This document shows, one piece after another, positions 9,479 to 16,307 of a stretch of DNA of 64,000 nt. The position numbers were made by a program, and so were the translations under genes. Each line of letters starts with the position of its first letter. The first letter of the stretch is position 1. Under the pieces are notes generated by a model that made no database searches, had not been told where the DNA came from, and saw only the letters and a list, made by a program, of their open reading frames with translations. Where the stretch lies: contig NZ_LYVO01000003.1 of assembly GCF_001984055.1 (NCBI RefSeq), positions 1 to 64,000 of the forward strand, written 5' to 3'. Source of the DNA: Variovorax sp. KK3. Its GTDB lineage: Bacteria > Pseudomonadota > Gammaproteobacteria > Burkholderiales > Burkholderiaceae_C.

Positions 9479-10255
9479 TCAGATCACGTTGCGGGTCAGC
9501 CCGCCGTCCACGCAGATGTTCTGGCCGGTGATGTAGCCCGCGTGCACGGAGGCCAGGAAGGCGCACAGCCCGCCGAAGTCGTCGGCCGTGCCCAGGCGCT
9601 GCATCGGAATGCTGCGGGCCATGTCCTCGCGCACCGCGGCTTCGTCGAGCCTCATGCGCGTCTGGCGGTCGGCGATCACGCGTTGCAATGCGCCCGTGTC
9701 CATCAGCCCCGGCAGCAGGCCGTTGACGGTGATGCCGTGCGGCGCGACCTCGCGCGCGAGCGAGCCCATGGCGCCGGTCAGGCCCACGCGCAGGCTGTTG
9801 GACAGCGCCATGTTGGGATACAGCTCCTTCACCACAAACGAGGTGATGTTGAGGATGCGGCCGAAGCGCGCCGCACGCATCGCGGGCAGGAAGGCGCGCA
9901 CCACTTCGAGCGGGCCGATCACGCTGGTTTCGTGGCTGGTGCGCCAGGCGTCCAGTCTGGTTTCCTCGAAGGGCGCGGCCGGCGGGCCACCGGCGTTGGT
10001 GACGACGATCGACGGCGAGCCCACGCGCTGCACGGCCTCCACCAGCCTTGCGCGCTCGTCCTCGATGCCGATGTCGCCCGGCACGAACACCGCGAGCGGC
10101 GACAGCGCGCGTGCCGCGGCCGCGCCGTGCGCCGCGTCGCGGCCGTTGAGGATCACGCGCACGCCGGCATCGGCCAGCGCGCGTGCGCAGGCGTGGCCCA
10201 GGCCGCGCGTGCCGCCGAGCACCAGGGCGGTCTGTCCTGCGATGCCGAGGTCCAT
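9479..10255 (-). CDS. SDR-family oxidoreductase with non-canonical active site
   Basis: A 258-residue short-chain dehydrogenase/reductase-fold protein. The cofactor loop GGTRGLG (about 14-20) and NAGG segment are clear. The normal YxxxK catalytic pair is absent: the aligned stretch [15 protein letters not shown] has Ser and Arg at the expected Tyr and Lys positions. This variant is known from a FabG-like subgroup of uncertain chemistry. The C-terminal [13 protein letters not shown] is typical. It lies between the crotonase and Liv-type receptor genes with short gaps, so it likely acts on the same CoA intermediate, or binds it without the standard reductase chemistry. Confidence 0.82.
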
Positions 10256-10277
10256 GGTGGCGCGTCCTCGGGCGGTG

Positions 10278-11105
10278 TCAGAAGGGGCAGGACGGATCGA
10301 ACTTCGGATCGCGCTTCTCGCGCAGCGAGGCGATGCCCTCGTGCACGTCCGGACCCGAGAAGCCGATGAATTCCAGAGCCAGCGAACTGTCGAAGCTCGG
10401 GCCGGCCAGGCGCAGCCAGTTGTTGAGGGCGTACTTGGTCCAGCGGATGGCCGTCTGCGAGCCGTTGGCCAGCTTCTTCGCCACCTCGAAGGCCTTGGGC
10501 ACCAGCTGGTCTTCGGGCACGGCCAGCGACACCAGCCCGATGCGCTCGGCCTCTTCGCCCGACACGGCTTCGCACAGCATCAGGTAGTACTTGGCCTTCG
10601 CCATGCCGCACAGGAGCGGCCAGACGATGGCCGCATGGTCGCCTGCGGCCACGCCCAGGCGCGTGTGGCCGTCGATGATGCGCGCGTTGCTGCTCGCGAT
10701 CGAGATGTCGGCCAGCAGCCCCGCCACGAGGCCCGCGCCCACGGCCGGGCCGTGCATGGCCGACACCACCGGCTTGCTGCAGTTGATCACGTTGTAGACC
10801 AGGTCGCGTGCCTCGCGCCACACCCGGGCGCGCACGTTGAAGTCGTTGGCCATGTCTTCCACCAGGCCCAGGTCGCCGCCGGCCGAGAAGCCCTTGCCTT
10901 CGCCGCGGATGATGGCCACGCGCGTTTCGGGGTCGCGGTCGATGTCGGTCCAGATGGAGGCCAGCTCGCGGTGCAGGTTGTGATCGGCGGTCGACAGCTT
11001 CTTGTTGGCGCTCTGCGATGCACCCATGACGATCTCGAGGATGCCGTCGGGGTGGCGCCGCAGGCTCAGCGCCTGGTAGTGGGCGTAAGGGGCTTCGTTG
11101 GCCAT
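10278..11105 (-). CDS. Enoyl-CoA hydratase/isomerase family protein
   Basis: Crotonase-fold protein of 275 residues acting on a CoA thioester. The oxyanion-hole segment [13 protein letters not shown] and the second one, [19 protein letters not shown], are present. At the two positions that carry catalytic glutamates in classical enoyl-CoA hydratase I see Val (AGLVAG) and a GHTRLG stretch, so simple hydration is doubtful. Isomerase, hydrolase or lyase chemistry is possible. It lies 22 bases upstream of the SDR gene and downstream of the acyl-CoA synthetase in one transcription unit. Confidence 0.85.
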
Positions 11106-11139
11106 GGTGTCGTTCCTTGGGGGCGGTGGTGGCTGGAAG

Positions 11140-12696
11140 TCAGATCTTCTTTCTTCCAGCCCAGTAGGGTTCCTTCAGCAGGTTCTTCTGGATCTTGCCG
11201 ATGGGCGTCTTGGGAAAGTCGTCGACGAAGCGCACGAGGCGCGGCCGCTTGTGGCGCGCCAGCTTGTCTTCGCACTGCGCGACGACGCGCGCTTCATCCA
11301 GCGTGCAGCCGGGCTTGAGCTGGATGTACGCTGCCGGCAGCTCGCCCCATTTGTCGTCGGGAATGCCGAACACGGCGCACTCCGCCACCTCGGGCAGCTC
11401 GTAGAGCACCTGCTCGATCTCCTTGGGGTAGACGTTCTCGCCGCCGGAAATCAGCATGTCCTTGGCGCGGTCGATCAGCGTGACGTAGCCATCTTCGTCC
11501 ATCACGCCGATGTCGCCCGACAGGCCCCAGCCGTTGCCGTGCCGGAAGAACTCGGCCGTCTGCTGCGGCTCGCCGTAGTAGCCGATCATGAGGTTGTCGC
11601 CGCGCGAGGCCACTTCGCCCAGCTCGCGCGGCTCGCATGGGCTGCCGTCGGGGCGCAGCACGGCCACGTCGACGTTGTAGGGCTGGCGGCCCACGCTGCC
11701 GAGCTTGTCGCGTGCGCGCTGCCAGGGCAGGGCGGCGATCACGCCCATCTCCGACTGGCCGTAGATCTGCGTCAGCCGCAGCTGCGGCAGGCGGCGCATC
11801 AGCTCGACCTGCACCCAGTCGGGCATCGGCGCGCCTGCGAACGAGAGCTTGGTCCAGCTTGCCAGGTCGCGCGCTTGCAGCTCGGGCAGCATGGCCAGCG
11901 CATTGGCCTGCGTCGGCACCATGAAGGTGGCGGTGATGCGCTCGGCCTCCACCGCATCGACGAAGGCAGCGGGCGACCAGGGCGTCACGAAGACGGCGGT
12001 GGCGCCGACCAGGATGGCCGGCTGGAACATGATGTTGAGCGCCGCCACGTGGAACAGCGGCGTGACGATCGCGACCACGTCGTCGGCCTCCAGGTGCTCT
12101 TCGACCGCCACCGTGTGGGCCGTGATGGCACGGGCGCGGTGGTGCATCAGCACGCCCTTGGGGTGGCCGGTGGTGCCGCCCGTGTACGTCATGCAGAAGG
12201 CGTCGCGCTCGTCGATGGCGACCTCGGGCGGCGTGGCGGGCTGGCCGGCGACGAAGCGGTCGAAGGTGATCGCGCCGGGCACCGCGCCGGTGCTCGCACC
12301 GATCGCGACGAAGTGCCGGATGCCCGGGCAGGCGGCGCGCACCTCGGCCACCTTGTCGGCGAACTGCAGGTCGTAGATCAGCACCTGCGTTTCGGATTTG
12401 GCGAGCACGTAGCCCAGCTCCTCCGCGGCGTAGAGCACCGAGATGTTGTTGACCACGCAGCCCGAGCGCGCCACGCCGAAGAACACTGCGCCGTAGGCCG
12501 GCAGGTTGCGGCACAGCATCGACACCACGGCGCCCTTGGGCAGGCCCAGTGCCAGCACGGCGTGGGCGACCTGGTCGGCCAGTGCGTCGAGCTCGCGGTA
12601 GAGCACGCGCTCGCGGCCCGCCGCACCGCGGAACACGATGGCCGCCTTGTCGGGAAAGCGGTGCGCCGATCGGCGCAGCATGTCTCCTGTCAGCAT
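11140..12696 (-). CDS. AMP-dependent acyl-CoA synthetase / ligase
   Basis: ANL-superfamily ligase that activates a carboxylic acid to its CoA ester with ATP. The 518 residues contain the P-loop-like [11 protein letters not shown], the GYYG region, the hinge [16 protein letters not shown] and the C-terminal catalytic lysine in KTPIGKIQK. The start at 12696 is preferred because GGAAGG lies just upstream; the frame runs nine codons longer. It is the promoter-proximal gene of an operon with crotonase, SDR and Liv-type receptor, and is divergent from an IclR regulator. Acid substrate unknown; a medium-chain or aromatic acid is plausible. Confidence 0.9.
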
Positions 12697-12737
12697 TCGC
12701 GCACCCTTCCGAAGCCTTTCCAAAACTTTCCAAATCG

Positions 12738-12774
12738 TTTACGAAATGCGAAACTTGTTTTCGATTAGCGTAAA
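12738..12774. promoter_or_regulatory. Candidate IclR operator palindrome
   Basis: Imperfect inverted repeat between the divergent acyl-CoA synthetase and iclR-type genes. The two 17-base arms flank a 3-base centre and match at 12 of 17 positions, including the outer TTTACG/CGTAAA and the inner CGAAA/TTTCG blocks. This AT-richer stretch contrasts with its surroundings, and an A/T-flanked palindrome is the usual shape of an IclR-family site. Assignment is by position and symmetry only. Confidence 0.55.
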
Positions 12775-12869
12775 TGCGTCCGTGTGCCGGTGTCAATCCG
12801 AAGACACCCGCACCGCGCGCCTCGACCCCTGCCCGGTTACCGTGGAGCCCCGATGAACAGGACCGTGCG

Positions 12870-13646
12870 ATGAACAACAAGGCACCCAAGGCCGGCGTGC
12901 AGTCGGTCGAGAACGGCCTCGACCTGATGCTGATCGTGGCGCACCACCGGCGCCCGATGAAGATCACCGACATCGCCGAGCAGGCCGGCATCGCGCCGAG
13001 CAAGGCGCACCGCTACCTGGTGAGCTTCCTGCGCACCGGCTTCCTCGCGCAAGACCCGGAGACCGGCCTGTACGGCATGGGCCCGGTGGCGCTGGAGTTC
13101 AGCCTGTCGTGCCTGGCGACCATCGAGCCGATCTCCCTGGCCACCCGCGCGGCCGAGCAGTTGTGCCATGCGCTGGGCCACACGGTGGCGGTGTCGGTCT
13201 GGGGCAGCTTCGGCCCGACGGTGGTGCGCTGGGAGCAGCCCGAGCGGCCGGTGATGGTCAACGTCGGGCTCGGCTCGGTGTTCCCGCTCGATCGCTCGGC
13301 CACCGGCCGGGTGTTCGCAGCCTTCCTGCCGGCCGAGCAGCTCAAGGCGCACGTGGCGTCCTCGCGTGCCGCGAACGGGCCGCCGGCCGAAGGCGCCGAA
13401 ACCGCCGAGCAGGTGCGCGAGCGCGGCATGGCGCGCGCCATGGGCGACTTCATGGACGGCATGAGCGCCTTCGCAGCGCCGGTGTTCGACGATCGCGGCC
13501 GCCTGGTGCTCGCGATCACCGTGCTGGGCTACAAGTCGGGCTTCGATCACCGATGGAGCGGCCCCGTGGCGGGCGCCTTGCGCGAGGCGGCGCAGACCCT
13601 GTCGCGCACGCTGGGCCACCAGCACGAGCGGCTGGCATTGGCCTGA
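12870..13646 (+). CDS. IclR-family transcriptional regulator
   Basis: A 258-residue regulator. The N-terminal winged helix-turn-helix (about 8-68) contains MKITDIAEQAGIAPSKAHRYL, followed by an effector-binding IclR domain (about 80-255) with GHTVAVSVWG, FPLDRSATGRVFAAFLP and FAAPVFDDRGRLVLAITVLG. The ATG at 12870 gives the normal N-terminus; upstream in-frame codons run through the intergenic operator region and are unlikely to be used. It is divergent from the acyl-CoA synthetase operon and probably controls it in response to the degraded acid or its CoA ester. Confidence 0.9.
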   Translation: MNNKAPKAGVQSVENGLDLMLIVAHHRRPMKITDIAEQAGIAPSKAHRYLVSFLRTGFLAQDPETGLYGMGPVALEFSLSCLATIEPISLATRAAEQLCHALGHTVAVSVWGSFGPTVVRWEQPERPVMVNVGLGSVFPLDRSATGRVFAAFLPAEQLKAHVASSRAANGPPAEGAETAEQVRERGMARAMGDFMDGMSAFAAPVFDDRGRLVLAITVLGYKSGFDHRWSGPVAGALREAAQTLSRTLGHQHERLALA

Positions 13647-13657
13647 GCCGGCGAAGA

Positions 13658-14809
13658 TCAGGACGCGGCGTCGTCCCGCGGCGGCACGAGCGCGGCGGCG
13701 CCGCGCAGCGCGTCTTCGAGTTGCTCGACGGTGTAGGGCTTGCGCAGCCAGAAGGTGTCGCGCGCGGGCTCGGCCGGCGGCGGCTGGCCGGTCGCGAAGA
13801 TCACCGGGAAGCCGGCGCGCCGCTGCAGCGTCTGCGCCAGTTCGCGGCCCGACAGCGCAGGCAGGCCGATGTCGGTCATCAGCACGTCGAAGGCGCCTTC
13901 GAGAAAGCGGCTCTTCGCGCCCTCCGCGCTCTTGACGCCGGTCGCCCAGTGGCCGAGGGCCTGCAGCAGGTGGAGGGTGGCAGTGAGCGTGTCCGGATCG
14001 TCCTCGACGACCAGGATGCGCAGGCGCGGTGGCGGCGCATGCGGCGACGCCGATGCGGCGGCGCGCTCGACCTTCCATGCGGCCTGCCGCTGCCCGAGCC
14101 AGTCGAAGAGGATGCGGCGGTAGGCCTCGTACCAATCGGCATGCGAAAGCGCATGGTCCGCGCCGTCGAGCATGCGCAGCTCGAACGAGCGCGCCGCTGC
14201 GAAGGCTCCGGCGTAGTTCTCGATCACGGGGCGGGGAATGATGTCGTCGTGCCCCGACCCGATCAGCAGGGCATCGCCGCGGAAGGCCGCGCAGGCGCCG
14301 AGCGCGCGGTTTTCCTCAGGCGCCAGGCGCAGGAGCCGGTAGACCGAAAGATCTTCCTTGTCGAGCTTCTCCTTGGGTTGCGACCAGGCCTCGTCGCGGT
14401 ACAGCGCCGGGGCCCTGAGCGCCAGCCATCGCAGTGGCCGCACGCGGCTGGCCAGCGCGGCCAGGTAGGCGCCGTAGCTCACGCCGACGATGCCGATCGC
14501 GTCGCCGGCCACGCCCGGCTCGGCGGCGAGCGCGTCGAAGGCGGCCAGCACATCGCGCAAATTGTCTTCGCGCGTGACCGCTGCTCGCTCCGCAGTGCTC
14601 CACTCGGCGTTCGGCACGTCGACCAGCCGACACGCGAAGCCGGCGGCACACAGTGCCTGCTCCAGCGCGCGGTAGCGGTCTCGGTGGTTGTCGTCCCACC
14701 CGGGCACCAGCAGCAGCCCGGGCCGGAGCGATGCGTCGGCGGGTATGGACGGAGTCAAGTCTTCGAGGTCTTTTTTGATTGAATCTCTTACCACGGGTGG
14801 AGCATCCAC
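13658..14809 (-). CDS. Alpha/beta-hydrolase fused to a response-regulator receiver domain
   Basis: A 383-residue two-domain protein in one uninterrupted frame. Residues about 28-245 form an alpha/beta-hydrolase with nucleophile S111 (GVSYGAY), acid D188 or D189 (IGSGHDD) and H219 (DGADHAL), so a full triad. Residues about 264-375 form a CheY-like receiver: acidic pocket E269/D270/D271 (ILVVEDDPDT), phosphoacceptor D313 (MTDIGLP), switch T340 (FATGQ) and K357 (LRKPY), all conserved. A short Ala/Pro-rich linker joins them. Phosphorylation could gate the hydrolase, but no histidine kinase is nearby. The GTG start at 14809 lacks a clear Shine-Dalgarno, so a start a few codons later is possible. 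It converges with the iclR-type gene. Confidence 0.85.
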   Translation of the reverse strand: MDAPPVVRDSIKKDLEDLTPSIPADASLRPGLLLVPGWDDNHRDRYRALEQALCAAGFACRLVDVPNAEWSTAERAAVTREDNLRDVLAAFDALAAEPGVAGDAIGIVGVSYGAYLAALASRVRPLRWLALRAPALYRDEAWSQPKEKLDKEDLSVYRLLRLAPEENRALGACAAFRGDALLIGSGHDDIIPRPVIENYAGAFAAARSFELRMLDGADHALSHADWYEAYRRILFDWLGQRQAAWKVERAAASASPHAPPPRLRILVVEDDPDTLTATLHLLQALGHWATGVKSAEGAKSRFLEGAFDVLMTDIGLPALSGRELAQTLQRRAGFPVIFATGQPPPAEPARDTFWLRKPYTVEQLEDALRGAAALVPPRDDAAS

Positions 14810-15434: not shown

Positions 15435-16307
15435 ATGGACATCGTCGTCAACGAAGAACTCAAGGCCTACATCGACCCCATGGCGCCCGAGGAATACGAG
15501 GCGCTGGAACGCAGCATCCTCGACGAGGGCTGCCGCGATGCGCTGATCCTCTGGGGCGACGTGCTGGTGGACGGGCACAACCGTTACGGCATCTGTAGAA
15601 AGCATGGCCTGCCTTTCAAGACCGTGCAGAACCCGCGCTTCCGCTCCATCGAGGACGTGCAGCTGTGGATGATCGACCAGCACCTGGGGCGCCGCAGCCT
15701 GTCCGACTACCAGCGCGGCGTGCTGGCGCTGCGCAAGAAGGAGATCGTGGGCGAGCGCAGGAGCCGCGCGGCCGCGGCGCCCGCGCCCGATGCAGCAGAT
15801 CCATCGGACGGATCGGATGCATCGAATGCATCGGCGTCCGAAGCGCTTGCCGCGATCGGCGCCGATGCAGCCCCGCTCGACAGCCGCGAGGCCGTGGCCC
15901 GCGCTGCCCGCCTGAGCAGCAGCCAGGTCGTGATGATCGAGAAGATCCAGAAGCAGGCGGCGCCCGAACTGGTGCAGGCGGTGCGCGACGGCACCATCTC
16001 GATCAACGCCGCGGCTGCGGTGTCCAGCCTGCCGGCCGACGAGCAGGTGGCCGCGGTGGCCAAGGGCAAGGACGAACTGAAGCAGGCTGCCAAGCGGGTG
16101 CGTGAATCGAAGCGCAAGCCGCGCGACGAAGCCGAAGGCGCGAAGGCCGCCGAGGCAGCGCACGATGACGCGGCACCGGGCGGCGATGAACTGCAGACGC
16201 TGCGCCGCCGCGTGGCCGAGCTCACGGCCGAGAACGAGTCGCTGCGGCGTCAGCTCGCCGCGCTGCAGGCCGGCAGCGCCGAGTCCGAGCTTCCCGCGCC
16301 GTTCTGA
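15435..16307 (+). CDS. ParB/Srx-domain protein with C-terminal coiled coil
   Basis: A 290-residue protein. The N-terminus (about 1-95) is a ParB/sulfiredoxin-like fold: EEYEALERSILDEG, then ILWGDVLVDGHNRYGICRKHG, with the DGHNR signature of ParB N-domains. A low-complexity Ala/Asp/Ser linker (about 105-135) follows, then a helical region (about 145-225) and a charged coiled coil (about 245-280, LRRRVAELTAENESLRRQL). No ParA gene or parS-like repeat is adjacent, so chromosome partition is unlikely. DNA-binding or CTPase-type regulation is possible. It stands alone, convergent with a Bug receptor gene. Confidence 0.75.
   Translation: MDIVVNEELKAYIDPMAPEEYEALERSILDEGCRDALILWGDVLVDGHNRYGICRKHGLPFKTVQNPRFRSIEDVQLWMIDQHLGRRSLSDYQRGVLALRKKEIVGERRSRAAAAPAPDAADPSDGSDASNASASEALAAIGADAAPLDSREAVARAARLSSSQVVMIEKIQKQAAPELVQAVRDGTISINAAAAVSSLPADEQVAAVAKGKDELKQAAKRVRESKRKPRDEAEGAKAAEAAHDDAAPGGDELQTLRRRVAELTAENESLRRQLAALQAGSAESELPAPF

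Follow-up and report, generated by a model that had tools for sequence, protein, structure and literature searches.

CheB carries a receiver and a Ser-His-Asp hydrolase in one chain. Its domains follow the order REC-CheB, with the receiver first, according to PMC5847659, and the effect of its phosphorylation is described in PMC9981736 as 'relief of effector domain obstruction'. PorX is a second receiver-hydrolase protein, consisting of an N-terminal receiver, a helix bundle and a PglZ phosphodiesterase, and PorX-Fj is described as dimerising on phosphorylation (PMC10951265). In archaea, KaiC-REC and REC-glycosyltransferase proteins are reported with a narrow spread, down to one genus or family (PMC5847659). 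The receivers with the FATGUY motif, as presented in PMC9981736, are also of importance here: the motif is found in CckA-Rec, CpdR, MrrA, SdrG and Sma0114, neither SdrG nor Sma0114 has helix alpha4, and in CckA-Rec a disordered link takes its place. A profile of CckA-Rec is stated there to retrieve exclusively hybrid kinases and Rec-only proteins. The same paper describes that BeF3 binding caused no allosteric change in CckA-Rec and argues that alpha4-less phosphotransfer receivers show no classic allosteric change, leaving the generality of this open (PMC9981736). Receivers without alpha4 are reported mainly as phosphotransfer intermediates.

Here we describe a gene of the soil bacterium Variovorax sp. 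KK3 in which a hydrolase is followed by a receiver in a single chain. The gene lies in a window of 64,000 nucleotides, by which we mean the whole stretch of DNA that was analysed, and its features are collected in Table 1. Receiver-enzyme fusions in general are already known; the combination of this hydrolase with a receiver is a new variant, and among the papers listed by our search of the open-licence literature none treats an alpha/beta hydrolase-receiver fusion or this protein. The fusion protein shares with CheB a receiver in one chain with a Ser hydrolase. However, its receiver is C-terminal, as in hybrid kinases, whereas most response regulators have theirs at the N-terminus. Moreover, no link to chemotaxis was seen for the fusion, and the CheB methylesterase family (PF01339) gave no match in the protein at E <= 1. 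PorX differs from it in hydrolase fold, in the N-terminal position of the receiver and in the helix bundle between the two domains. With the archaeal KaiC-REC and REC-glycosyltransferase proteins it has in common that an enzyme-receiver join is confined to one genus or family, although the enzymes are others and so is the domain of life. Finally, the protein is not a hybrid histidine kinase, given that neither HisKA nor HATPase_c had a Pfam match in the chain.

Table 1. Features of the fusion gene, with positions in the window and residue numbers of the 383-residue frame.
Feature	Position	Strand	Basis
Fusion open frame, 383 codons from GTG (366 aa from TTG 14758)	13658..14809	-	Frame and starts of relatives
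Alpha/beta hydrolase domain, about residues 31-247 (S111, D188, H219)	14069..14719	-	Pfam, PDB 3ksr, triad
Residues 183-188 (IGSGHD): G184 where unfused relatives have E; catalytic acid D188	14246..14263	-	Alignment counts
Interdomain linker, about residues 248-262	14024..14068	-	dN/dS
Receiver domain, about residues 263-378 (E269, D270, D313, T340, K357), very probably without alpha4	13676..14023	-	Pfam, relatives, spacing
PVIFATGQPPPAEPARDTFWLRKP, residues 335-358: beta4, proline-rich link very probably replacing alpha4, beta5	13736..13807	-	T340-K357 spacing

The sequence-only reading had described a single frame of 383 residues that joins a hydrolase to a receiver. The join holds, as the minus-strand frame is open over its 383 codons from the GTG at 14809 to 13658, and both domains scored above the Pfam cut-off (Peptidase_S9, an alpha/beta hydrolase family, at residues 81-131 with E 1.9e-5; Response_reg at residues 265-342 with E 2.1e-9). 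Among the matches listed for the protein, no NCBIfam model was above its cut-off. The length, on the other hand, probably needs correction. In the database the protein (P0001) is 366 aa long, with the TTG of residue 18 (base 14758) as its first codon; nine of the ten other fused clusters (P0002-P0009 and P0011) also begin near this codon, and P0010 has a longer N-terminus than the rest. The GTG is therefore probably the wrong start, with the TTG at 14758 as the likely one, and the 383-residue version would be 17 residues too long. The fusion protein is probably soluble.

How far does this domain order extend? A protein search (8000 candidates scored, 390 matches, best 120 considered) returned it in 11 full-length clusters of 67-100% identity, the window's own included, and two of these, P0002 and P0004, come from Variovorax defluvii and Variovorax soli by their source names. 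Six of the 101 Variovorax genomes carry the full-length fusion without internal stops (G000, G042, G047, G093, G094 and G096, the window's genome being one of them). Of 399 genomes drawn as a sample of the family, 30 gave matches at E <= 1e-45, among which the window's own alone was full-length; the match in G274 reaches residue 308 of 366, through two stops. Plasmids searched with the fusion as query gave ten records, all below 60% identity and none covering 80% of the query, and eight records among the matches listed align to the hydrolase part. The pairing had been called uncommon from the letters alone, and so it is: as far as searched, it is found in Variovorax alone. The search of other genomes for the same order, which had been set as a test that could overturn the fusion, instead produced ten further clusters and five further genomes, and the recurrence of the order without internal stops speaks against a missed stop or frameshift. 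We give practically no weight to a sequencing or assembly artefact, since the order is shared by other genomes and by metagenome clusters and not one internal stop interrupts it across the six fusion genomes; the relatives refute this explanation and nothing was found in its favour.

In the hydrolase tree the 16 fused rows form a single clade with support 99/100. These rows, 66-100% identical to the window's protein, stand for 11 clusters and five genomes and are not all independent, some genome rows being close to cluster rows. The fused receivers (15 rows, G047 having been left out) form one clade as well, although weakly (58/16; 63% of bootstrap trees) in a tree of 112 columns only. Purifying selection acts on both fused domains: over the ten pairs of five sequences, taken from five of the six fusion genomes as G094 was left out by the motif filter, dN/dS was 0.12-0.31 in the hydrolase and 0.05-0.47 in the receiver. 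The linker, with the script's borders at residues 241-262, was relaxed, with 0.30-1.8 over the same number of pairs. Taken together, the same order in relatives, the single hydrolase clade, the invariant residues and the purifying selection indicate, on sequence grounds, that the gene is a single, old fusion in a Variovorax subgroup and not an error. An origin from two adjacent genes was also considered and rejected: among the matches listed for the Variovorax genomes, no hydrolase adjoins a separate receiver. In G051 a hydrolase and a separate receiver are on one contig, roughly 35 kb apart.

The hydrolase half is of the type of PDB 3ksr, a putative serine hydrolase that is the closest solved structure by sequence (E ~1e-54). 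Homology extends over the domain, which has the G-x-S-x-G nucleophile, the Asp and the His of this type of serine alpha/beta hydrolase. S111, D188 and H219 are invariant in 16/16 fused and 111/111 unfused sequences. The triad is thus as it had been read at S111 and H219, while the acid, previously left between D188 and D189, is D188, as position 189 varies among the unfused. From the fold, our guess for the putative substrate is a small-molecule ester, thioester or amide. 3ksr and the unfused relatives possess the identical triad, but they have no receiver and differ on both sides of D188. Residue 184 is G in 15 and A in one of the 16 fused proteins, versus E in 108/111 unfused ones, including all 11 nearest; residue 193 is R in 13, S in two and H in one, versus H in 102/111 and again in all 11 nearest. 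3ksr likewise has E and H at the aligned positions. The fused protein of G096 is the sole exception at both sites (A184 with H193), so that the pattern is not strict. That these residues differ in the fused proteins suggests a co-adaptation of the hydrolase with the fusion. The change sits on the branch to the fused clade and so counts as one event, not many; it fits this idea and does not prove it. The nearest unfused hydrolases have 58-66% identity among the best 120 of 390 protein matches, and 62-63% in G029 and G051, where they are located at a different place and with no family receiver within the fetched 13 kb.

The residue set of a phospho-competent receiver is complete in the other half, with E269, D270, D313, T340 and K357 present in 16/16 fused rows. 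The sequence-only reading had named D270, D313, T340 and K357 correctly; its acidic pair of D270 and D271 has to be moved by one residue, to E269/D270 (16/16 each), as position 271 is D in 11 rows and E in five. Threonine and lysine are separated by a spacing of 17 across a proline-rich link, both in 16/16 fused rows and in 118 of 120 stand-alone relatives (the other two have 18). For comparison, 46 of the 97 other PF00072 matches in the genome were measured, an author-chosen sample drawn mostly from the top of the list: the spacing is 22 in 43 of them and 21, 20 and 19 in the remaining three. One further listed match was left out as it lay outside its fetched stretch, and in one of the 46 the Lys is replaced by S. 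A spacing of 17 is confined, among those measured, to the fused receiver and a stand-alone paralogue on contig C14, and these two are also the only ones of the genome's 99 Response_reg matches in which the Pfam match ends at profile position 79/111. Given the spacing and the early end of the match, helix alpha4 is very probably missing from the fused receiver, which would therefore not have the canonical (beta-alpha)5 form with alpha4 in the output face.

At and after beta4, all 16 fused rows read FATG with Q, R, L or M as the next letter (mostly Q or R); in the stand-alone relatives the four letters are kept in 120, 83, 115 and 109 of 120 sequences, respectively. FATG and the probable loss of alpha4 are shared with the FATGUY receivers SdrG, Sma0114, MrrA and CckA-Rec. 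Moreover, 2lpm, which we take to be Sma0114, and 5ieb, which is SdrG, are among the PDB matches of a profile search with the receiver family, at ranks 7 and 38, although ordinary receivers match as well or better, which speaks against a clean assignment to this group. There are also differences: those proteins, which are Rec-only except for the kinase CckA, end the motif in G/Y, while the fused ones have Q, R, L or M, and the genome of the fusion lacks HWE/HisKA_2 kinases.

The receiver half derives from a family of stand-alone, very probably alpha4-less CheY-like receivers of Variovorax. Its relatives are stand-alone receivers of 118-202 residues and 58-72% identity (best 120 of 265 matches). 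The family is present in 61/101 Variovorax genomes and, at E <= 1e-18 among the 399 family genomes, in five genomes of one other genus and three of Variovorax. A separate family receiver is kept by all six fusion genomes, so the fused copy has come in addition to it. A search for longer proteins that contain this receiver gave 21 matches, namely the 11 fused clusters, five proteins of kinase type at 30-44%, four receivers with no further named domain and a single protein that combines AsmA with the receiver in one chain. In this last protein (P0241, 476 residues) the receiver has FATG and spacing 17, and either another fusion or an error in gene calling may explain it. Outside Variovorax, a named-genome collection was searched with six short peptide patterns (12 loci), and the best loci were second, C-terminal receivers of hybrid kinases from Aquabacterium, Leptothrix and Paraburkholderia, at 40-45%. 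In the five hybrid kinases of Aquabacterium and Leptothrix the spacing is 22 in the first receiver and 17 in the last, which reads FASGYG; the spacing in the Paraburkholderia kinase is 19. At two loci (L058 and L062) a stand-alone family receiver is found near a different single-domain receiver gene and, judged by eye, an IclR-like regulator gene.

Turning to the surroundings of the fusion, where gene calls in the fetched loci come from a home-made caller and the starts are rough, a ParB-like gene is close by in 6/6 intact loci. It directly adjoins the fusion in four loci; one called gene lies between them in G047 and a putative 155-codon frame in the window. The window's copy is at 15435-16307 (+), its likeness to ParB was judged by eye with no Pfam match above the cut-off, and such a gene is also near the remnant in G045. 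That genome has the same neighbourhood with a broken hydrolase (the fusion-gene remnant L057 6202-6984), and the receiver was not found in the fetched 13 kb. With the receiver and some of the hydrolase gone from this locus, the fusion gene is dispensable in G045. The window also holds, at 9479-12723 (-) and 12774-13646 (+), an SDR-like and an enoyl-CoA hydratase-like gene (both judged by eye) together with an AMP-binding ligase gene and an IclR regulator (both by Pfam). These genes are convergent with the fusion gene and are replaced by other genes in G093.

No kinase had been seen next to the fusion, and the wider search agrees: HATPase_c has 82 matches in the genome and none on the contig of the fusion. 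A kinase-like motif pair, a crude pattern run with no control, did not occur in 20 fetched loci or in the first 30 kb of the window. HisKA_2 and HWE kinases were not found in this genome, the control genome Caulobacter being positive, and the alphaproteobacterial stress relay was rejected on this ground. In another genome, G074, a receiver that is 44% identical (C37:11651-11995) lies inside a 1260-codon frame, which is perhaps a hybrid kinase related to the receiver family.

How the two halves work together is a matter of weighing. Our leading proposal, held tentatively and at a little less than an even chance, is that in this old fusion a histidine kinase from another locus, possibly of the hybrid type, phosphorylates D313, and that the hydrolase is controlled by the receiver's state. 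The receiver could dock on and leave the mouth of the active site, in the way of CheB, or phosphorylation could make it dimerise, as in PorX, or bind a partner; the altered residues 184 and 193 next to D188 might then be the hydrolase side of the coupling. Control by docking or dimer would be expected in place of the usual alpha4-beta5-alpha5 route because alpha4 is probably missing, and the same loss disfavours the usual allosteric output. Phosphorylation-gated hydrolysis, as first proposed from the sequence, is therefore possible but weakened in its simple form: alpha4 is the signalling element of classic response regulators, and its loss has been reported mainly for phosphotransfer intermediates. 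The C-terminal place of the receiver, the origin of the 184/193 changes in one event with an exception in G096, the weak receiver clade and the damaged gene in G045 also count against the proposal. The highest-rated rival assigns the roles the other way round. The hydrolase would be the input, its binding or turnover of a small molecule altering how readily the receiver takes up or releases phosphate, and the receiver would act as a phosphate buffer or phosphotransfer intermediate, in competition with the stand-alone receiver that 6/6 fusion genomes possess. We consider this unlikely, although a good deal speaks for it. In the genome collection, the receivers outside the genus that come closest to the fused one occupy the second, C-terminal position in hybrid kinases, the last receivers of Aquabacterium and Leptothrix resemble the fused one in motif and spacing, and FATGUY-type receivers are reported from hybrid kinases and Rec-only proteins (PMC9981736). 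Additionally, the enzyme comes first and the receiver last, and RsbQ, an alpha/beta hydrolase, is described as half of a sensing module, detecting a small molecule for RsbP (PMC3183031). RsbQ, however, acts through a PAS domain and not through a receiver. The search of the genome found none of the HisKA_2 or HWE kinases, the type with which SdrG is described to work (PMC5898713), the family profile gives FATGUY receivers no preference among its PDB matches, and the motif closes on Q, R, L or M. The substitutions beside D188 favour neither gating nor a hydrolase that serves as input; domain order and receiver type favour the latter.

A slightly smaller probability goes to the idea that the receiver, whether phosphorylated or not, merely places the hydrolase at a partner or membrane site and leaves its catalytic rate unchanged. 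The CheY-like domain of PorX-Fj is described as binding GldL in a phosphorylation-dependent manner (PMC10951265), and Rec-only proteins can, according to PMC9981736, act by protein contact. Yet the fusion went along with changes on both sides of the catalytic acid, for which a pure address tag would have no need. Alternatively, the two domains might have been fused by chance, with no coupling, and the gene might be heading for loss, as its narrow distribution and the broken, receiver-less copy at the same place in G045 could suggest. This is improbable in our view, as both halves are under purifying selection, the active residues are invariant in 16 fused rows of 66-100% identity and the ParB-like gene is kept nearby in all six intact loci. 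Control of the hydrolase by the receiver remains the reading that we prefer.

The fusion offers a one-chain system in which a receiver that very probably lacks alpha4 is tied to an enzyme with a potentially readable rate. A comparison set is at hand as well: the fused proteins can be set beside the stand-alone receivers and beside those unfused hydrolases that are closest to them and carry E184/H193. More speculatively, and with doubt on our side, the enzyme might be a sensor: ligand binding or turnover in the hydrolase would set how the C-terminal, alpha4-less receiver of hybrid-kinase type holds its phosphate, and a metabolite could in this way provide input to a phosphorelay in which the stand-alone receiver also takes part. 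If true, this would be the reverse of a response regulator with an enzyme as its output.
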